DNA of 64,000 nucleotides from Coprinus comatus (lineage: Eukaryota > Basidiomycota > Agaricomycetes > Agaricales > Agaricaceae): assembly GCA_034638255.1 (NCBI GenBank), contig JAWPGT010000022.1, positions 1 through 64,000 on the forward strand. Direction: 5' to 3'. The notes under the pieces are model-generated. The model searched no databases and was not told where the DNA came from. It saw only the letters and a program-made list of their open reading frames with translations. How positions within the stretch are numbered: position 1 is the stretch's first letter; every line of letters starts with the position of its first letter. Position numbers and translations under genes: made by a program. Positions 2,511 to 50,245 of the stretch are shown in pieces.

Positions 2511-4701
2511 ATGCGGAACCCACAACCACCTCGACTCCTAGTCTGGATTGGATTATGTCTTTTTACTCTTATCATTCTCACATTTCATCATAACAGACAT
2601 AAAACCATAACGATCTTACGAACTCCATTTCGAACAGTGACAGAAACAATAACTCAATACGTTTCAGTAACAGAAATTATTACAGTTCTACCCACTCCAG
2701 AACCAACTTCTACCAAACCCAAACTTGGTAAACATCGATATAGACGTGATGGTTTACTTGATGTTAACGAGGATGGTCCACATCCAATATTTGAGTTGAT
2801 GAGACGTGCTGAAGTAGAGTGGAATGAGAAGCATAGGAAAGCTAGTAAGAATATACGAGATGCTGTTGATGAATATCGAAGGCGGTATAAACGTTATCCT
2901 CCAAAAGGTTTCGACCTTTGGTATGTAAATCCAAAATTAACTGGACCGGAAGGCTAAAGGAAATTCAAATATTCAAGGTGGGAATACGTTACAGAACACA
3001 ATGTTCAATTACCCGATGAGTACGACCAAATATTTCATGATTTGGAACCTTTCTGGGGAATGGATCCATCAGACCTTCAAGCATTACAAAAAGAAATCGA
3101 GAAGGAAATTGATACATATACCATTGGTATAAATGGTAGCGATGCCAACGTCGATGTTTTGACATATCGCTTTCACGAGGGTTATTATCACCTTCATATG
3201 ATTGGTGCTGAAGAGAAGCTGTCTTTGATCAGAGAAGTTAAACATCTTCTACCTCCTTTTCGTATGACATTTTGGCCTGATGATCGACCGGATCGGTTGT
3301 CGGATTGGAATATTACAAGTATATTGCTGGATGCAGCTGCTTCGGGAACTGGTAAATATCTATTATACTGTATAACGGTAGAGCTTGATAGTTTTGTTTT
3401 TATATCAGTGATCAAAAGGGATGCATTCCCAGAGAGACATAATAGCGGATGGGTATATGCATGTCCACCGTCTAGTCCAGCTCGTCGTAAACCTTTCAAC
3501 CTCGACAATCCACCTCCCTTTCCAACACAAAAGACATTCATTCACGACCACAAGAAGACTATGGATCCGTGTCAACATCCTGATCACCTCCACCACCATG
3601 CACAATTTCTTTCATATAACTATGGTCCATTTCCTCGAGAAATGATGATACCAATATTTTCTCATTGCTCAACATCAATCCATCATGACATTCATATTCC
3701 AGTTCCATTTGGTTGGGTAGAAGATGTTTTACCTAGAGATCAAGATCCACCTTTCGATCAAAAACCAAATGAACATTTATTGTGGCGTGGAGGTCCTTCA
3801 GGAATGTACCACGACAAATTTAATCGATGGCAAAATGCACAACGTATTTCACTTGTAGGGTTTACAAATAATCTCACAGGAACAATGAGAGTTTTAAAAC
3901 CTGTCGAAACCGAAAGTGAAAAACTAGGAAAACCTAAAATTTGGAAGAAATTTAGTGTTAATCCTAGTTTTTTTGATATTGCTTTTGTTGGAGAACCTAG
4001 TGCTTGTTCAAATGATACTTGTCCAATTTTGGCTCAGAATTTTCCTTGGGAACCGTATATGAGTCAAAAGGAAGCTGGGAAATATCGATATGTGATTGAT
4101 GTGAGTTTCCTTTTGAAATTCAGTGTTCAGTGATGAGTTGTTTTTAGGGTAGAACTAAACTATGTTTTTTTGTTCTTTTTCTTTTCAGGTTGATGGGAAT
4201 GGATGGTCTGGTCGCTTCAAACGACTTATTACCTCTAATTCTCTCATTTTCAAATCAACCATATACCCTGAATGGTGATTCTCTTTCTATATTTTCTTTT
4301 TCTTTTGCTGCTAGTCTCTTCCAGCAGCTGCTCAACTATTTTTCAATTTTTAGGTACACAGATCGAATTCAACCTTGGTTACACTATGTTCCAATACAAC
4401 TGGATTACTCAGATTTGCACGACACTTTAGCATTCTTCAGAGGTGATACAAATGGTGAAGGTTCTCATGAAGTATTAGGAAAAAAGATAGCTGAAGCGGG
4501 CGTAAATGGAGTAAAACATTTTGGAGGAAAGAAGATATGACTGCTTATTACTTTCGGTGCGTTGTGATCTCTCTAAGACCCTATATATGCATTATGAATC
4601 TAGGACTATTTATTGATTATTGTGAGCAATACAGGTTGATTTTAGAATTCACGAGGGTAATGAGATCCGATAGATTAGAAATGTCGTATAGACCAAGTTA
4701 G
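2511..4701 (+). CDS. GT90 (CAP10-like) glycosyltransferase, copy 2, with a frameshift near 4500 (possible pseudogene)
   Basis: Tandem duplicate of the preceding gene. The ATG at 2511 opens a short cytoplasmic tail and a hydrophobic anchor (residues about 9-23, LVWIGLCLFTLIILTF), as expected of a type II Golgi enzyme. Exons: 2511-2920, 2978-3351, 3409-4100, 4189-4274, 4354-4556, 4635-4701. It shares the blocks of copy 1: LEPFWGMDP, KTFIHDHKKTMDPCQHP, LLWRGGPSGMYH, DIAFVGEPSAC, VDGNGWSGRFKRLITSNSL. In the fifth exon, at about 4498-4501, one base is missing relative to copy 1. The frame therefore leaves the conserved AGRKWSKTFWR block and stops at 4538-4540. Downstream bases still encode the conserved block and a last exon ending in SYRPS in the other frame, so the lesion is recent, a sequencing error, or tolerated as a C-terminal truncation of roughly 40 residues. 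Confidence 0.85.
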
Positions 4702-19325: not shown

Positions 19326-21601
19326 TCACTTCTCATCCCACGCAAGCGTCGAATCTCTATGATCATAATACATAAACTCCCTATCCAGGTTCATAACTCT
19401 CGCATACTCCAAGAACAACCTAAACACAAATCAGAACGCTCACGTTAGAATCCCCTACAACAAAATCGAAATCGAAAACACACCGAAACATATAAGCAAC
19501 CATATCCTCCTTCCTCCAAAACCTCAAACTCCACTCCCTTCCCTCTCTCGCAATCTTCCTGCCCAACTCTTCCTCTTCTCTTCCATTCCAACTTTCCAAA
19601 TCACCTCTAAAAAACAACACCAAATCCACCAAATCCGAATAATCATTTTGAACTGGAATATAATGAACCCAAGGTTGTACACGATCAAGCCACCATTCTG
19701 GATATATGCTTGATTTAAATATGAGTGCGTTGGATGTTATAAGTCTTTTAAATCTTGATGACCATCCATTACCATCAACCTAAGTAAAAAACAGAGAGAA
19801 AAGGGGATCAAAGTAAACATCCTTCATGGAACTTTGAACCGAAGAGACCTAAAGAAGAAAGAAGAAAAGGGACACATACGTCAAGTATGTATTTATATCT
19901 TCCAGCCGATTTAATGTCCTGCATCTTCCTAAACTCAAACTTCTTCTTCAACTCCTCACATATTTTCGGTTCACAACTAACCGGTTCACTCGCGAACGCA
20001 ATATCCAACAAAGCCGGTGCATATCTAGCCTTCTTCACTGAAGTCCCATTACCCACAGGTTCATATTCCCAATTACCCCAAATATCATGTTCATGATGTT
20101 GATGTTCTTCAGGGACAACAAGAAAACCAGATTTCTTCTTTTCAGTATCCTTATCTTTCTTCCTTCTCCCACGATTCTCTAATACAGTCCAATTCCCTTC
20201 TAAATCATTTGCCCATTCCACTAATCGATCTCTTTGTGAATCCACCCAACGAACTGTTTCGTCTTCACCATGCCAAATACCAGTATTCCTTCCCCTCCAA
20301 AGTAACCTATCTTCAACCTTCTGGTGCCATTCTGGATTGTTAACTCTAGGATAAATATCTTCTATCCAATTGATTGGTACAGCAGGTGTTATATCTTGAT
20401 GTAACATCGTAGGGCAGTAAGAAAATTGGGGTATCAGTTTTCGGTGGGGAACAGGTCCCGCTTTATGAGATACAAATTGGCCGTGTTGGAGAAGAAGATT
20501 GGGATGAGTACAAGGGTCCATTGCTACCCGATGATCATGTATGAAAGTTTTGGGATAGGAAGGACGAGTGGGAGGCGGTGAAGAGAATTTAATTGAACTT
20601 GCCCATGCTTTTGAATTAGGCGGACATGCAGATATCCAGCCGTGAAGTTTTACTCCGGGCGGATTCTTGATATCTATGAATCGGCCTTCTGCTGAGGCAT
20701 TCAAAGCCATTTGTTTGAGTTCCCAGTCTGTATGAAGATTGGGGTTGTCGTGAGGGGAAAATACTGCGCGGAAAGCTGGGATGTAGTATTGAACTTCCTC
20801 TAGAAGTTCAAGAATTTCTAAACCTCCTGTGAGGAGGTTATGTTTGGTTTCTTCCGAGCCACTAAGACTAGAGTTAACAATTTCGATTGGCCCGTCATTG
20901 AGTTTTCCAATAGTATATGTATCTTCGTGCGATTCCCATTCGTGTTGGATATCTTGCAAATCTTTCGGATTCATACCCCAGAATGGCTCCAGGTCATTGA
21001 AAATTTGATCATATTCGTCAGGGAGCTGTACCTGATTTTTCTCAACATATGTCCACCTTGTTCGAAATATGTCATTCTTGTTACACACTAATGCACTATA
21101 AGTTGTGAGCGCTTACCACTCGTCAAACCCAAGAGGTGGTTTTCGCTTGTACCTCCTCTGATATTCCCGAACTGCCTCATCCAACGAATGACTTGCTTGC
21201 TGAAGCTTTCCTTGCCATCTGGACTCAGCCTGGGCTATGAGCTGATAGATAGGGTGCGGCGCACTTGGATTGACTTCCAACAACCCGTCATCGCGTAGTA
21301 AATGTTGGTGATCGGGTTCGGCATACGTGACGGCAGTGGTTGGATCAGGGGCTTGAACGTCAGGGGCAGATTTAATGGTTGTTTCGACCACGTTTTGGGT
21401 TTTCAGCCTAGCTGTAGGAGCTGGCGACCATGTACTTGATCTATTCTCGAGGAATGTATCGGTAAATACTCTGATCTCCCAAAATTCAAGGAAGAACGTG
21501 ACAGAGAGACCCCGTAGGTAGCCAGAAAACAGTGCCAAGCCAAGCAGCAGAACGATTAATATTGGACGTCGTAAGATCCTTCTTGGGTTAAGATTCAACA
21601 T
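19326..21601 (-). CDS. GT90 (CAP10-like) glycosyltransferase, copy 3, diverged
   Basis: Third GT90 gene, about 15 kb from the tandem pair and on the opposite strand. ATG 21601 gives a type II topology: short basic tail (RRILRR) then hydrophobic anchor (PILIVLLLGLALFSGYLRG). Exons: 21601-21117, 21056-19880, 19779-19484, 19419-19326. Shared family blocks are DLEPFWGMNP, KTFIHDHRVAMDPCTHP, RLLWRGRNTGIWHG, DIAFASEPVSC, then the third exon reading into RVQPWVHYIPVQNDYSDL, FWRKEDMVAYMF and a last exon FLEYARVMNLDRE. It differs from copies 1 and 2 in lacking the intron after the SxIYPEW block, and in a charged insertion of about 50 residues, rich in Lys, Arg, Asp and His, between the WRG block and the DIAF block. 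The gene appears intact. Substrate unknown. Confidence 0.9.
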
Positions 21602-22104
21602 GGGCAGAAGAAGGACGGTAGCAGGTGCATTGACAGGATGCAAGAAGTGTGGTTTGCATTTATACAAGCAAGCGTTATGAATGCTGTCGTCTTGAGCGTA
21701 AATTTCATAGAATGAGTTTGCCTTTTATGTCTTCTTTTTGATCCGTCGGCGTAGTGCGTATGTTCTGCCAGATCATGCAACGGCTGCACATAATACCGAG
21801 GAATATGCCTGGGTGAGCTCCTATGTGTATGTGTACACTGCCAAGTTAGTTTGTTGTTCCATTTGTGGTGTATGTAGTTGGGTTGTTGCAGAGATGATAG
21901 ATCCGCGAGGATCGAGGAGAGGGCAATAAACTGTACAGTTTATGGTAGTTAGTTCGGGGATATGAGACATCTGATATATTTTAATAAATATTGGGTATTG
22001 TAATCCGAAACAGCCAGGAGGGTGAGAAGACCCAGAAAGGAAATTGTATTTGTCCCCTTTTCTTCCACTATGAACTAAATCTCCATCACTTTCCTTCTCC
22101 CAAC
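21602..22104. promoter_or_regulatory. Divergent promoter region, GT90 copy 3 and C2H2 gene
   Basis: About 500 nt separating two divergent start codons, so both promoters must lie here. No clear TATA element or other gene was recognised. Confidence 0.45.
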
Positions 22105-28724: not shown

Positions 28725-31182
28725 ATGTGAGTACGAACCGCCATCACGATAGGTATAATTGTTTATTATTCACATTAGGCCCGATGAATACATAGACCCA
28801 TCTTTCTACTTGGACTCTCCAAGTCCTCGCACTGAAGACGAGGAGGCCGCTGGTGAATGGCCATTTGAGATATGTTCCGAAGAAGTTGACAACGACGGCA
28901 GGCTTCGGTATGTGGACTTGCAAAAATTTACACATTATTCTCACCCAGTCTTTGTAGATATGAGGTCAATGTCTCCATTGCTTCCATTGCTACCTTCCGA
29001 GTCTCACACTCTGAAATTCTCTCAGATTGATTGGGATGGATGGAAACGTAAAGATGGTACAACTCAGACTTGGGGTGTGCTTGAAGACCGACACCTGAAG
29101 ACATGGCGAAAGTTGCAGCTCACTAAACGACAGAATCTAGTAAAAGAATCACTCGATATAGACCTTACACCATTCGTGGGTGTAGACATCCATAACACCG
29201 AAACGCGCCTTCGTGCTCAAGCCTTCGAGGAAAAATTGAAGGCTCGCGAAAAACTCGGCTTCACTCTAGAGGCAGAGATGCACAAGTTACACCAAGACAA
29301 AGGGATACCCCTCGACCCTGCTTACTCCTCATTATTCTCTTCAACTTCCCTCTCCTCTCTAGGTTCAGAACCCTCAGCCCCTGCACCTTCGGGGCGTGGT
29401 CTACGATTTTCAACTGTTCGCCAACAAGAAACCTCCTTGTCATCACCTATGGCGCGCGGTGTGCGAAAACAATCATCACAATCACAAACTCCAGAACGAA
29501 ATCGCGTTACTCCATTATCGTCCTCACGGCCCTCATCATCCACATCATCTTCGCCGATAATTACACGACTCCCTCTCCCCAAACGTCCTCCTTCCGCACA
29601 TATTTTGCCACAAAATAACACACAAGCTGATCCAGTGGGTCACATAGGAACGCCTCGTGATACACGTTCTGACCATACTTCCCGTCCCATTGTTCACCAT
29701 CAGACATCCGAACCAGCAAATTGTCCGCGGAAAGACAAAGGAAAGGCTCGAATGCGGGAGTGAGCACTTCCCAAGTCTCATACGCTCAATGTTGTAAAAC
29801 TTATGCTACCAGTAATCTACGATTGCAGTTCTCTAACGAATGGTCCAAGATTGCTTTGGAAAGTGGTTCGGCTCCAATACAATTTGTGAATGATGTTGAC
29901 GATGAAGAAATACCACCTCTGGATCCGGGATTCCAGTACATAGAGAAAGGTTATATTTAGTAGGTTGGACCCCTAGTTCCGAGAGTGCATTCGGATTAAC
30001 CAAGGGTTTGGCTTTTAAGTGCATCCGGTATTGATCCACAGGATGCGTCTTTTCAAATCGGATGTAATTGCAAACGATGTGACTCGGCTTCGAAATGCGA
30101 ATGTCAAGAGATTTCGAATATCGTGACTAAGAACGGTCGCAAGAACTTTGCTTACACCAAGGCGGTCAGTACAGGGGAAAGTCGTGTCCTAAATATTAAA
30201 TGGTTACACTTTCCAGGGATTGTTTGCGTTTAATGTCCCCAGAGGCGTAGAAGTTATCGAATGTAATGAAGTGAGTTAAAACACACTTGAGTCTCATGAC
30301 ACGTTCTCATTTGGATACACGTTCTCAAATAGACCTGTAATTGCGGACCAGAATGTCTGAATAGAATTGCTCAAAGGCCTAGAGATGTGTCCATGGAGAT
30401 ATTTAAAACTGCAGGCAAGGGTTGGGGAGTTCGTGCTTCTGTCGACATTGTTCGTGGTAAAGTGTTAGGACTGTATACTGGGTAAGTACCACATTTATTT
30501 TAATTACTTATTTCCAGACTAATCCCCTTCATCCCGTAGCCGCTTAATGTTTGTGGATGTACCCTTCTAATAAAGGTTTTGAAGCTGACCTCAGCGGATG
30601 CTTTAGCACAAGACAGGAAGCGCATGATATGAATGATGAAGTCGGTGGTTATTGTTTTGACTTGGACGGCGCCGAAGTTTTAGACGAAGATGAAGATGAA
30701 AATTCTGGAGAGAGGTATAGTGTTGAATCAAGGAATTGTGGTACGTATTTGTTATTGTGAATTGACTAGAAATATTGTAATGACATTTTATTTTCACAGG
30801 GAACTGGACCAGGTTTGTCAAGTACGTCGATCTATGCGTCTCAAAACCTCCCATTATAACTAATCATGCGCATATAGTCATTCATGTGGTCCTAACATGA
30901 GTATTTTCCTTGTGGTTTTCGATACAATACCCGACGTACGTGTTAAAAATCATTCCATTTTCCGAGTATAGTCTTGACAACACATCTCTTACGTGTCCTT
31001 TTTGTTAGACGAATCGACCTTATATTGTTTTTGTTGCTCGAGAAACTATACCAGCGGGTACTGAACTTACTGTTGACTATGATCCTGCCCATCCAAAAAA
31101 GCCGACACAGGAAGAACTTGAAGGGATGAAGGAGTGTAATTGTGGTCATGAGAACTGTAGAGGGCATGTTCGAATGTACTGA
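28725..31182 (+). CDS. Chromodomain + pre-SET/SET/post-SET histone lysine methyltransferase (SUV39/Clr4-like)
   Basis: Predicted nuclear H3K9 methyltransferase acting in heterochromatin. N-terminal region: a chromodomain-like segment built over short exons ([13 protein letters not shown], then a 16-nt exon, then [17 protein letters not shown]). A Ser/Pro-rich linker follows, ending KGKARMR. The pre-SET Zn cluster appears as [18 protein letters not shown] with a further [10 protein letters not shown]. The SET core shows [35 protein letters not shown] (cofactor-binding NHSC) and ELTVDYDP. The post-SET cysteines read [15 protein letters not shown] at the C-terminus. The start is unusual: no ATG opens the first long exon, but AT at 28725-28726, a 52-nt GTGAGT...TAG intron, and G at 28779 join to make an in-frame ATG ([12 protein letters not shown]). 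An AAG acceptor near 30016 is needed to enter the pre-SET exon. The domain set is secure; exon details less so. Confidence 0.87.
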
Positions 31183-32354: not shown

Positions 32355-34572
32355 AGCTTGTGTACACTTGAGATTGTGTTGTGTGTTTTTTGGTTGGTCG
32401 GTAAGGAAGGGTAAGGAAGGAGAGTTGTGGGAAATCAAACTCACGCAACCCTGTAGGTGTGTTTTGTATCTTCTCACGTCCAAATATAACTTTTTTTTCA
32501 GCACATCTTTCCGTGGCACTGAAATACTCGACGGACACTCGTGCTTTTAACTTTGCGACACTATTTATAAACTTGACAAAAAACATGGACACTACTTTTC
32601 AGACTTTTGGATTCGATAAAGACCCAGCTATGTACCCCTGAATAGTTGGTTTGGTTTTTTGTGTTTAGATGTTTAGATGAACAGAAGAAGTGATAATGAA
32701 CGGCGGAAATGGGGGTAGTGAGGAGTTGACTGTTGAATTTTAAGCCAGGACTGGAATTAATGAAGTCAATGGACTCAGGGGACACCTACAAGTAAAATGT
32801 GATGACCTGCGGTTACATGTTTCGCGCCGTTTAACGACTCTTGAACTTTCCGTGGTTTCAATACTACATAGTCAATACTACACAGGTACCTCTCTCACCC
32901 ATTGACCTCGTTTTCCAGGCACATAACTATATTTATAAGTAAGCCTGGTATTTTGAGATAAGGAACTGTCATACTACCTTGTCCGATGGTGGTCAGTTCA
33001 CCAATACAACAGATGAAATTCTATGAATGTACTAGGCCATCCAAAATTTACAGCTCCTTGTACCTGCCTCGCTGCCTCTGGCAGGTTGCTCATAACGGTC
33101 GACGTCCTGATTTAATACATTGGTATTTTTAGTACTTCAGTCGTAATACCATTGGCTGAAATGTTGGACACCATTGAGGTGTTTTGAATTCAGTTGAATT
33201 TTGGCGAATACCAACATCGCCACGTAGCATTATTACATTGCTTAACGAAGTCACGATCCATGATTGGTTTACAAGAGGTATTGGGACTGCTACAACTGAG
33301 ACAGCTAATTGGTTAGTGACCTTCTCCGTCGGACACTTGAAATGAAAATGTCAAATCAGTCCATGCTAGGGTCCGTTAAACGGAGGTATTTCACCGTCGG
33401 CTATGTTACCGCCGATTAGTATCTCGGTCGCATCCATCCATCTAGGTGTTTGTAAATAAAATACGAGGAGGCCTGGGTTTTCTCTAGAGTACATATACTA
33501 CAAATATTGATTCTTAGTATTAGATAGGCATCTAGCACCTGAGTGGACTTGTTAATATTATCCGAACTCTCGGGCGGAACTACATTCGGTGAATATGCCT
33601 CCTCAAAAATGTTTTGGTAACATTTACACCTTGTCACACTAACAATTTTGACATTCCTTCCTGCGTACTAGGAATACGATTGTATTCATCTATTCTCATC
33701 CATAATTCCGTTCGTTATCTTGTCCTCCAGGACCCATTCAAATGAGGTTTGTATATCTAACCCAAGGCCCACGCCGAATGGGTATGGATATCGAGATAAT
33801 AAAAAGTTGATAGCACCACTGGTCCGATCTTGCGCATCGCTGAAGCGAAGGACATGTGCTCCTGCTTACGACATATAAAGAAGGATAGACTATTTATGAA
33901 CAACATGTACAGGGCCCACAATGACTTCCGTGAGACTATTCATCTAAAAACTTTCACCGTTCATCGATTAATAGCCACATTGCAATCGATAAGTAAATGT
34001 GGGTTGATATTATCGCTGTGAAGTAACTATTAATTTACCGTCAATGTACTTTGTATTGTGTTGATGTGGCCGACGTGGGAGACAAGAGGACATATCATCC
34101 ATCCAAATGTAGTAACCTGGCAGGGTTCAGAATTTTCCCAGTCATCGCCGGATTCGCAATCTCCACTCAAACGAAGATCATCATAACAAAACCCTGAACA
34201 AACCCTCTCCAAACTATAATCCGTCCTAGCTCTGCACCTACTCTCCTGAAGATCACAACTACGGGCTACATAGATGTGTATGTTGACGCTTACAGCATTG
34301 AATTGTATACACCGCAAAAAGTACCGTTGTGCCTGGACATTTACCTCACTCGCTCCAAGGCACCGCTAAGGTACATGTCTCTGTTAGAAATGTAGGGTCC
34401 TACTAAAAATGGCAATGAAATTCTGTCTCGGTGGAGACATATAAAGGAGACATTTTTTTGTTATCCCTGTTAAACCCAAAAGTTTCTCCCCAACTTTCCG
34501 TTGTTAACTTGCCTACTCGCTGGTATATTTTTCTCTCTACCTACCACACACAGTCACACCAACATATTCGTA
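32355..34572. promoter_or_regulatory. Intergenic region; TATA-like box before the peptide-precursor gene
   Basis: About 2.2 kb with no recognised gene. Near its right end, gacatataaagg (about 34435-34446) forms a good TATA-like box about 130 nt before the ATG at 34573, followed by a CT-rich stretch and a caacatattcgta leader. The rest has short open frames without motifs. Confidence 0.5.
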
Positions 34573-34984
34573 ATGCGTGTTCAACTATTGCTCCTGGCAT
34601 CTTTCATCGGTGCTGCATTTGCTGCTCCTGTTCCCAACGCTAACAATGTATGTTATCATCTTTCCCTCCCCAATCTAAAGCATGTAAACTGATTATGATG
34701 TTATCATAGGATGTCGAAATTGTACGTTGAATGAATCAAGAGACTAAAGATTATATTGCTGATGAGTGAACTATTCTTAGCGGGTACCATACCCCCCTGG
34801 CTGGAAGCGCGAAGCAGAGGCAGGAGCACCGGGTTGGAAACGTGAAGCAGTGCCGGCACCATACCCCCCTGGCTGGAAGCGGGAGGCAGTCCCAGCTCCA
34901 TATCCCCCGGGCTGGAAACGCGATGCGGAGCCAGCACCATACCCTCCTGGCTGGAAGCGAGGGTTGAACGAGATTGAAGCATGA
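34573..34984 (+). CDS. Secreted Kex2-processed repeat peptide precursor (KEP; alpha-factor-like layout)
   Basis: Predicted 96-residue secretory precursor. Exons: 34573-34647 (signal peptide MRVQLLLLASFIGAAFA plus a short pro-segment), 34710-34721 (12-nt exon, DVEI), 34781-34984. All junctions are phase 0 with GTATGT/GTACGT donors and TAG acceptors; introns are 62 and 59 nt. The last exon is a repeat array: VPYPPGW-KR, EAEAGAPGW-KR, EAVPAPYPPGW-KR twice, DAEPAPYPPGW-KR, then GLNEIEA. Each of five Lys-Arg dibasic sites is the kind cut by the Golgi protease Kex2, and four of the five are followed by EA, EAEA or DA, the dipeptides trimmed by Ste13-type aminopeptidases in yeast alpha-factor maturation. 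Basidiomycete mating pheromones are normally CAAX-farnesylated and do not look like this, so a pheromone role should not be assumed. No cysteines, no CAAX box, no UstYa-type HxxHC protein nearby. Function unknown. Confidence 0.9.
34781..34963 (+). repeat. In-frame tandem peptide repeat (x-PYPPGW-KR units)
   Basis: Five coding units, four full (PYPPGWKR) and one short (GAPGWKR). Full units in the middle are 33 nt apart. The five KR sites are written with five different codon pairs (aagcgc, aaacgt, aagcgg, aaacgc, aagcga), so the array is old enough to have diverged at silent positions while the peptide stayed constant. Confidence 0.9.
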
Positions 34985-37900
34985 TCTAACCACTACGCCA
35001 CTACTCATGTTCTTCCTCCCATAACCCACATTTCGAGCCGACGAAGTACACATTTTTTGCCGGATTGGTGATGGGACTTGTTTAATGCACGTTCTGATTC
35101 CGTTTCTGGGAGAAGGATCAAAATGTCGAAAATCAGGACACCGAGTACAACGTGTTTTTTTTGTCGCCGTTCCTGGTGAAGAGCGTCTTTCAGCAGACTT
35201 CAAAAAGGATTTTCCCCGTGATTTTTTGTTTGTTTCGTTTTTCCAATCGCTACACCCCTATGCCACATCCACTTCCGTCCAGATTCTGTGGGATACCCGT
35301 TCCTTTATCTTCCCCATTTTTTCCTTTGTGAAAAAAATTACACACAAACACACCAAGTTGTTCGTTCACATTCTTTTTGTCTCCTGCCTATTATGTTTCT
35401 TGTAGAGGATTGAAGATATGTTCATTCTTCCTGTGTTTTTTTTTTGTTCCATTTGTTCTTCTTATTTTTATATCGTAGGTAAAAATGTAAACTTAAAACA
35501 TATATATAAATAACCTCCCTGGAGAAGGATTAATTCTAAAGTCTTTTGTGTTCAAAACACACAATTGTGATCACCTACGTTCGTACGAAACAACAGCGCA
35601 CATTGTGGTGAACAAGAATATGTTATGTCACTCATGGCGAAAACGAAAAACCCAAGCAACGCTATAATCTAATTTCTCTGAAAACGTTGGTTACCTCAGG
35701 CTGGGCTTTGTGGGGATAAAATTCTGGATATTCAGTTCTTCCGTTCTCAATTTTTTTCAAATTCCAAATTCTAAAACCGCCACCATATCGCACAGTGACA
35801 CGAGGCTAAAAGCACACACAAGGTGACCTAGTAACATGTGTAACAACAAGTGTTCTGTCCTGGTCTCCTTTGTTACCAAGAACGTGGGCACAATGATGAC
35901 CTGGACTTGTGGCGGAGACGATCACCGGAGGATGGCAAATTCTGTCCTAAGTACGTTATGGGGTATTGTAATACTGACGTCAGTAAAAAAGTGGTTTGAA
36001 TATATGTGCATATATGCTCTTACCTTGCTTACATTTGTTTACATTGTTTACAATTATGGTAATGAGCATATTTGTGAATATTCCTGTTCAGGTTGCATAT
36101 ATAGACTACTAGAATTATATAGATTGTAGGAAATGTATTTGAATGTATTTGAATATATTCAAATAATAATTAGGTATATATAAAAGTAAAAAATGATAAT
36201 CTACTGTGTCCCCCGGTTACATTCTTTGACTTACCAACACAGGCATTACACAAGGATATATTTACAATGAGTATTTTTATTTATTTATTTATTTATTATA
36301 CATAATTATAATTACAGTTGAAATTTTGCAACGATCAGGAATTGAACTAAGTACCTATTGATCACTGAAATTAAAGCTAAGTAAAACGAACCACTAAACT
36401 ATGGCTTCATTTATTGTCGTTGATCGCAGTACATCAGAACAGGACCACATTTTCCAGAGGGATTGCTCACTGTTCACTAACGTCTTGCTCATATCTTCAC
36501 ATATTCTTGTTCAATTGTTATGATGCTACCACTATTAAAAAGTGATTCTCTTTAGCTACATATTCTACTCATTTGTATAGCCATATTATAGCTAGACATA
36601 TAGAATAGAGTGTTCTCTATAGGGATACCATACTGCATATATGCAGCTACACTTTTTTTATACCACATATATGCTCATATATTCATAAATCCAGTATGCT
36701 ATACAGCATATATTAATGCCACAACTTGAGTGTAAGACATGTATGCTATATACTAATGATGTATAGTTAATATATGTCAAAAAAATAAATGTCTATTCCC
36801 ACATGATGGTTTTTATATAAACATGATTGTTGCTTTTCAGGTGTAGGGCATATAAGCGCAAACACGTTCAATACCAGACATTTAAACACAATACATGTCG
36901 TTACCAGAATTGTATTCAAATACATAATATACATTTACATATATTAAATCAATATTTTTACTGACGCTGTACACTGAAGTCTCAGAAAGCGGAACGGGTA
37001 AGGTTCCTGTTAGAAATCTCGTCTGAGTGCGATGCTCGGGAGAGTTCCATTTTTTTAGACCCCGAGAAGTATTACACATGATTTTTTAATATCTAAAAAC
37101 TTTTGATAGCCTGGAAACAGTGACTCTTTGCATCGCAAATATGTACCGGCTCATGAATGTGATCACTCAGATTGCCAAAGGGTTAGGTGAGGCTAGAGAT
37201 TACTGAATCCCTATAACTCATACCGAAGATGGATTAAGAGGTAGTAGTAGTAATGCACAATGTATGTATGTCATTTGAATGTCCAATTTATGAATTATCT
37301 GGAATGCCCGTCTCTTTCGTGCCGTATCCGTTGTTTTTGTGCGACGCGTACGGATGATTAAGTAGGGTTGAGTTGTCTAAAGATAAGTGTAGAGAACGTG
37401 AACAGTCTCAGACTGGCCGTAAAACGTGATGATTTGATTTTACATTTAAAGAATGGAATACTGCTAGAACAAGTGCGATATGTGGTACACTCTTGAGTCG
37501 ATCTCTGATGTACGTAATGATGAGGAGGATTGTCAGGGTCGAACGGACTAGCATGTACAGACAACTAAATCCAGAATAAATCCGTGTACGATATATAATA
37601 GGGACTAGGGTCCCGAAACGAGCGCTTGTCAAGGTTATTACCACTATGTAATTGATTCGGATATAAACAAGCGCTTGAGTCTGCCTGAGTCCTTGACGAT
37701 AAGCATGGGATAAACAAAGGGTGGGTTAGTCTTGGTTAGTTCTGTATTATAACAGCGGAATTCGAATCAATTAAGCGCCAGGTTTGAACATTTGAACCTC
37801 GGGGAGGGTGTTCTATGTAGGTTCTAGTAATGAAATAACATATGTACTTGGCCATAATAATTATATTAGACCGGGCCGCATAAAAGACTCGGAATAGTAC

Positions 37901-50157: not shown

Positions 50158-50245
50158 AGCCCACCGCGGGACTCGAACCCGCAACTTTCAGATGATCACT
50201 GAATTCGTAAAAGTCTGACGCTCTGGCCAATTGAGCTAGGCGGGC
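50158..50245 (-). tRNA. tRNA-Lys(UUU) with a 14-nt intron
   Basis: Cloverleaf fits on the minus strand: acceptor GCCCGCC pairs with GGTGGGC, D-stem GCTC/GAGC, anticodon stem TCAGA/TCTGA, T-arm GCGGG-TTCGAGT-CCCGC. The anticodon loop reads C-T-TTT-A-A once a 14-nt intron (CGAATTCAGTGATC) is removed at the canonical position after nucleotide 37, giving anticodon UUU for lysine. The mature length is 74 nt including the discriminator. A T-run follows at 50150-50156 on the transcribed strand, the polymerase III terminator. Confidence 0.93.

Follow-up and report, generated by a model that had tools for sequence, protein, structure and literature searches.

KEX2-processed repeat proteins (KEPs) were named by Le Marquer et al. 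(2019), who reported members with STE13 signatures in Basidiomycota (PMC6339444), and Umemura (2020) counted 7878 KEPs, spread over 1345 of 1461 strains; among these KEPs are 76 homologues of six pheromone-like ones from basidiomycetes (PMC7329392). Vogt et al. (2022) detected KEP-derived peptides in four agaricomycetes and noted STE13 motifs and a C-terminal Trp in many KEPs of basidiomycetes (their Fig. S10a); according to the same report, peptides of Pleurotus STE13-motif KEPs were seen by mass spectrometry, and C. cinerea KEP 490115 expressed in Pichia gave QMRPPSW and QYKAPSW (PMC9769878). Knockouts of six C. cinerea KEPs, including the STE13-type 490115 with its C-terminal Trp cores, were reported to have no detectable phenotype, and synthetic peptides to lack antibacterial activity towards the bacteria tested (PMC9769878). 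The class has thus been known in basidiomycetes since 2019, its processing was shown in mushrooms in 2022, and the Coprinus comatus gene described here is a further member. The novelty of the class that an earlier note on this DNA had implied was overstated, because STE13-signature, alpha-pheromone-like KEPs of basidiomycetes had already been published (PMC6339444, PMC9769878).

The window analysed here is a stretch of 64,000 nucleotides of C. comatus contig JAWPGT010000022.1 (C22 below). Ascomycete alpha-pheromones are about ten to thirteen residues long, and their precursors consist of a signal peptide, Kex2 sites, Ste13 dipeptides and a repeated core with a C-terminal Pro-x-aromatic motif, a layout that the window KEP shares, its own signal peptide being putative. 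The window KEP differs from them in that its predicted peptide has five residues and that the Pfam search of the window protein gave no alpha-factor match (MF_alpha or related). Basidiomycete CAAX pheromones carry a C-terminal CAAX and have no signal peptide, whereas the window precursor ends in GLNEIEA and has a signal-peptide-like start. C. cinerea 490115 and Pleurotus 1091723 and 1439342 possess, like the window KEP, dibasic sites, X-Ala/X-Pro leaders and short Trp-ending cores, but the window cores YPPGW and GAPGW have five residues against seven or eight in those KEPs, 490115 being compared by its published cores (PMC9769878).

The precursor gene occupies positions 34573-34984 (+) of the contig, where three predicted phase-0 exons form a 291-nt CDS encoding a precursor of 96 residues. 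The product reads MRVQLLLLASFIGAAFA/APVPNANN-DVEI-RVPYPPGWKR-EAEAGAPGWKR-EAVPAPYPPGWKR-EAVPAPYPPGWKR-DAEPAPYPPGWKR-GLNEIEA, the slash marking the putative signal-peptide cut; the signal peptide was recognized by eye from its hydrophobic core and the A-x-A ahead of the cut. Both introns contain a stop in the reading frame continued from the preceding exon. Alignment with four homologues revealed that DVEI bridges the gap between an Asn/His motif (NANN here) and an invariant Arg30, a spacing of four residues in three of the homologues and of five in the other. That the spacing provided by DVEI is matched in these four homologues speaks for micro-exon 2. Skipping of exon 2 would keep the frame and is conceivable, yet it would create a 133-nt intron and lose the spacing found in the homologues. 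A TATAAA sequence lies at window positions 34440-34445, approximately 128 nt 5′ of the start codon.

Table 1. Exons, introns and repeat units of the precursor gene (CTRAY positions are counted from the 3′ end of the intron).
Feature	Position	Strand	Description
Exon 1	34573..34647	+	75 nt; ATG, putative signal peptide MRVQLLLLASFIGAAFA and APVPNANN
Intron 1	34648..34709	+	62 nt; GTATGT..ATAG; one CTRAY, starting 21 nt before the 3′ end
Micro-exon 2	34710..34721	+	12 nt; DVEI
Intron 2	34722..34780	+	59 nt; GTACGT..TTAG; one CTRAY, starting 22 nt before the 3′ end
Exon 3	34781..34984	+	repeats; 67 codons and TGA
Unit 1	34781..34810	+	RVPYPPGW-KR; preceded by a single Arg, not KR
Unit 2	34811..34843	+	EAEA-GAPGW-KR
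Unit 3	34844..34882	+	EAVPAP-YPPGW-KR
Unit 4	34883..34921	+	EAVPAP-YPPGW-KR; protein identical to unit 3
Unit 5	34922..34960	+	DAEPAP-YPPGW-KR
Tail	34961..34984	+	GLNEIEA and stop

The repeats are separated by dibasic sites in five Trp-Lys-Arg units, four of which contain PYPPGW (units 1, 3, 4 and 5) and one GAPGW (unit 2). Among the 811 open frames in the window that span 40 aa or more, the precursor gene is the only one with at least two W[KR]R motifs, and it has five. The earlier note had read a three-exon precursor with a 12-nt middle exon, which would indeed splice in phase 0, and had described PYPPGW units ending in Lys-Arg; the five Lys-Arg endings hold, while PYPPGW itself is found in four of the five units and is replaced by GAPGW in unit 2. 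The dipeptides that it placed after four of the five Lys-Arg sites are EAEA, EA, EA and DA, and the fifth site leads into GLNEIEA. Its Kex2/Ste13 logic, with several copies of one short peptide, stands as a prediction, as set out below.

Comparison of the units at the nucleotide level speaks against a chance pattern. The 13 residues of unit 3 recur unchanged in unit 4, although the two differ at eight nucleotides, all eight of them silent. The proportions of silent and replacement change were 0.79 and 0.00 between units 3 and 4, 0.40 and 0.07 between units 3 and 5, and 0.76 and 0.09 between units 4 and 5. When eight random substitutions were introduced into unit 3 in 20,000 trials, its protein never stayed intact, in a test that is blind to strand (the minus frame with coinciding wobble positions gave 0.90 silent, the plus frame 0.81). 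Together, these results make it clear that selection acts on the precursor protein. An antisense gene in the repetitive 71-aa open frame at 34777-34992 (-) was considered and rejected, since the frame has no Met and the homologues match the plus strand. The coincidence of wobble positions on the two strands accounts for the minus frame being open and repetitive as well. Pfam matches of the window protein to MBD (E 0.029) and Lpp-LpqN (E 0.25) fell below the cut-offs of those families and were set aside as chance.

Once the precursor enters the secretory pathway, kexin would cleave C-terminal to each Lys-Arg, a Kex1-type carboxypeptidase would strip the Lys-Arg, and a Ste13-type dipeptidyl aminopeptidase would remove X-Ala/X-Pro dipeptides until a following Pro blocks it. 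Ste13 is not known to cut before Pro. When these rules were applied in silico, units 3, 4 and 5 yielded YPPGW and unit 2 yielded GAPGW, with each of units 2-5 shedding two or three X-Ala/X-Pro dipeptides, a STE13 signature. Unit 1, if cut after the single Arg30, gave VPYPPGW and, after loss of one dipeptide, YPPGW. The output would be YPPGW in three copies and a single GAPGW, with a fourth YPPGW if kexin also accepts Arg30; cleavage after a single Arg has been proposed for other KEPs in Pichia (PMC9769878). The calculated [M+H]+ values are 619.2875 for YPPGW and 487.2299 for GAPGW, 787.3773 and 815.4086 for the partly trimmed forms APYPPGW and VPYPPGW, and 1183.5782 for untrimmed EAVPAPYPPGW. 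Shuffling of the leaders of units 2-5 (the residues before the last five) brought all four units to five residues in 2 of 20,000 trials, a target length that was picked after the units had been seen. We hold with high confidence that the gene encodes a STE13-signature KEP from which YPPGW and GAPGW would be released by Kex2, Kex1 and Ste13 activities.

A protein search of the genome revealed one further gene, at C37 91776-92472, and the reciprocal search returned the same two genes only; the genome searches were run exon by exon, so that their counts are lower bounds. An exact PYPPGW codon search of the whole genome found four copies, all in the window gene. The paralogue also has three phase-0 exons, of 60, 57 and 453 nt (splice sites read by eye). 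It is longer than the window gene and of the same build, with 13 Trp-ending units, and its precursor ends in Trp. The units run from one TPPW through six of the APGW/PPGW kind and five TPPW to a final AGGW. Under the trimming rule, only 1 of its 12 non-first units was trimmed and the other 11 were not. The codon pattern P-[PA]-W-K-R gave 18 + 9 matches in the genome against 7 + 10 for the control, six of them in the paralogue and none in the window. The paralogue also matched RDM3_C (E 1.5e-6, 28.9 bits), but below the cut-off of 35, and the match was attributed to repeat composition. As a side observation, its xPGW units stand together ahead of a run of TPPW units, which amounts to two peptide types in one precursor.

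Beyond this genome, querying about 5.8 billion proteins with the window protein yielded three matches, and a profile of the window protein and these three gave 17 matches including them, scored among the 7993 candidates sharing most words. Eight of the 17 are named and come from seven species, all of which we take to belong to Agaricales: Lyophyllum shimeji, Arthromyces matolae, Termitomyces sp. Mi166 (two matches), Hebeloma cylindrosporum, Mycena polygramma, Favolaschia claudopus and Pholiota molesta. The homologues retain the W-[KR]-R sites, as expected from the earlier note, for which homologues without conserved Lys-Arg sites would have spoken against the reading. The homology within Agaricales extends to P-x-W-[KR]-R, and we call the grouping PGW-type KEPs, a name coined in this analysis. 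The L. shimeji protein LshimejAT787_0904770 (P0004) has the string EAEAGAPGWKR in common with the window protein, and Termitomyces C0995_002980 (P0006) is a sequence homologue; in both, the pro-segment (ARHxEExRE) is longer and the units vary more than in the window protein. A homologous JGI protein, P0003, yields three TPPGW and one TPPDW under the same trimming rule.

Family counts were made on 17 precursors, that is, 15 of the 17 matches together with the window gene and its paralogue; P0017 and P0018, in which VGW, HGW, AGW or SGW endings prevail among the units, were left out for that reason. These precursors contain 125 Trp residues, 105 of them before KR or RR, 10 at the last position and 10 in neither place. 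Pro stands two positions before Trp in 111 of 115 units and Gly one position before it in 67. As the relatives were retrieved by likeness to such units, these figures are descriptive and no test of the family; several unnamed matches may be fragments. With P0017 and P0018 restored, Pro-x-Trp was found in 116 of 132 units and a terminal Trp in 10 of 19 precursors; for the eight named matches, the window gene and the paralogue alone, the corresponding figures were 71 of 74 and 7 of 10. That 10 of the 17 precursors (the window gene not among them) end exactly in Trp, with no dibasic site, suggests from their sequences that the mature peptide really does end in Trp. Among the 101 non-first units of the 17 precursors, the trimming rule would take one or more dipeptides from 35 and two or more from 23, and 17 of these 23 end as pentapeptides. 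The paralogue and many homologues have no STE13 signature, which counts against the Ste13 model. The strings PYPPGW, YPPGWKR and PPGWKR were absent from a full-text literature search, although supplementary KEP tables or figures could list them or the Pro-x-Trp pattern; the shared C-terminal Pro-x-Trp and the tendency of trimmed units to converge on five residues are possibly new.

Candidate processing enzymes are encoded in the genome. One kexin locus was found on C5, a lower bound since further copies split by introns may have escaped; C. cinerea is reported to have three kex2 genes (PMC9769878). The catalytic part is nearest to yeast kexin (a 178-aa piece matched 1OT5 at E 5.7e-71), and the best matches were from Macrolepiota (79% identity), Leucoagaricus (77%) and Agaricus (76%), which suggests an Agaricaceae-like mushroom. 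In the assembly the P domain is approximately 58 residues short of that of Macrolepiota, with a frame change and no N at the locus. An 83-residue P-domain query found no counterpart in the genome for its first 39 residues, and a search of the genome for the P_proprotein family was negative; the shortfall, which counts against the processing model, is either an assembly error or a real deletion. A Ste13-like peptidase locus on C7 matched DPPIV_N (E 5.7e-52) in its propeller part only, and another exon of the locus matched a dipeptidyl aminopeptidase in the PDB (E 2.2e-8); the gene may instead encode a vacuolar dipeptidyl aminopeptidase.

Upstream of the gene, an open frame at 30000-30233 has a Pre-SET-like match (E 1.5e-5, 25.9 bits) below the cut-off of 29.1. 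Downstream, 39260-40003 matches class II tRNA synthetases and, with the frame before it, is read as a glycyl-tRNA synthetase. Two related open-frame stretches of opposite orientation, 2958-4133 (+) and 19808-21724 (-), contain similar VQLPDEYDQIF..LEPFWGM sequences; they had no Pfam match at E 0.01 and may resemble CAP10-type glycosyltransferases. ARAGORN identified a tRNA-Val (tac) gene at 50158-50245 (-), which Rfam likewise classed as a tRNA. The statement of the earlier note that nothing in the window suggests a modifying enzyme agrees with our Pfam scan, in which no peptide-modifying enzyme was recognized among 20 of the 33 window frames of at least 140 aa and four shorter ones near the gene, all scanned as unspliced frames.

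Enzymatic modification could nevertheless be supplied from elsewhere, as in a cyclic RiPP precursor of the dikaritin type whose Tyr and Trp are cross-linked by UstYa proteins encoded at other loci. Dikaritin precursors (ustiloxin, phomopsin) are likewise secreted and composed of Kex2-cut repeats, Tyr is present in four of the five window units, and DUF3328 genes are reported near 17 of the 76 homologues of putative basidiomycete pheromones (Umemura; PMC7329392). The check for UstYa (DUF3328) genes beyond the window that the earlier note had proposed gave 11 matches, on C1, C3, C9 and C31, but none on the 388-kb contig C22 or on C37, which carries the paralogue, in an exon-wise search whose counts are lower bounds. 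Moreover, neither unit 2 nor any part of the paralogue contains Tyr, and the window KEP, unlike dikaritin precursors, has a STE13 signature; such signatures are reported to be absent from the precursors of ascomycete toxic cyclic tetrapeptides and epichloecyclins (PMC6339444). Because C22 has no UstYa match, a cross-linked product is a weaker reading than a linear one, and we consider it improbable; the mature products are probably linear, unmodified and secreted. Some UstYa-family matches lie close together (C1 2568046-2574527 and C31 50639-52213) and may mark peptide-modification clusters.

It is very improbable that the gene encodes a true functional counterpart of ascomycete alpha-factor, even though the precursor layout is the same and the C-terminal Pro-x-aromatic recalls the PCW ending of Sordariomycete alpha-pheromones (PMC6339444). 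No STE2 match was found in the genome by a search that had no STE2 positive control and found nothing in the control genomes either, whereas the same method gave 25 exon-level STE3 matches, on C8, C3 and C40, with 19 of the 25 on C8 and none on C22. The STE3 matches indicate that receptors of the CAAX-pheromone kind are present, on contigs other than that of the KEP, and basidiomycete mating pheromones are described as prenylated and a-type (PMC9769878). The YPPGW and GAPGW peptides are thus unlikely to be mating pheromones. A cluster of STE3-type receptor matches at C8 445461-496030 is perhaps the B mating-type locus. Nor do we give much credence to a structural hyphal or cell-wall repeat protein like Ustilago maydis Rep1, from which Kex2 would free surface-active fragments, a reading that we likewise hold to be very improbable: Kex2-cut repeats are common to Rep1 (PMC7329392), but Rep1 is reported to be without a STE13 signature (PMC6339444), and the products predicted here are pentapeptides.

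For the linear, secreted peptides that we favour, we infer a signalling role: most likely they would act as an extracellular signal or mediate contact with other organisms, and would be read via the C-terminal Pro-x-Trp. More tentatively, and with more doubt than confidence, we propose that the Agaricales Pro-x-Trp KEPs may be one peptide-hormone family whose information resides in the C-terminal Pro-x-Trp and whose receptor is not STE2; in its STE13-type branch, leader dipeptides in register would bring differing units to pentapeptides (YPPGW, GAPGW, TPPGW and GPPGW). Alpha-factor-like precursors came as a surprise when they were reported from mushrooms. For the study of their function the locus is a short, clean case, with one small gene and a predicted pentapeptide that can be synthesized and searched for by exact mass, and the paralogue, with its mostly untrimmed units, offers a comparison. 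The recurrent Pro-x-Trp ending might be what a receptor or target recognizes.
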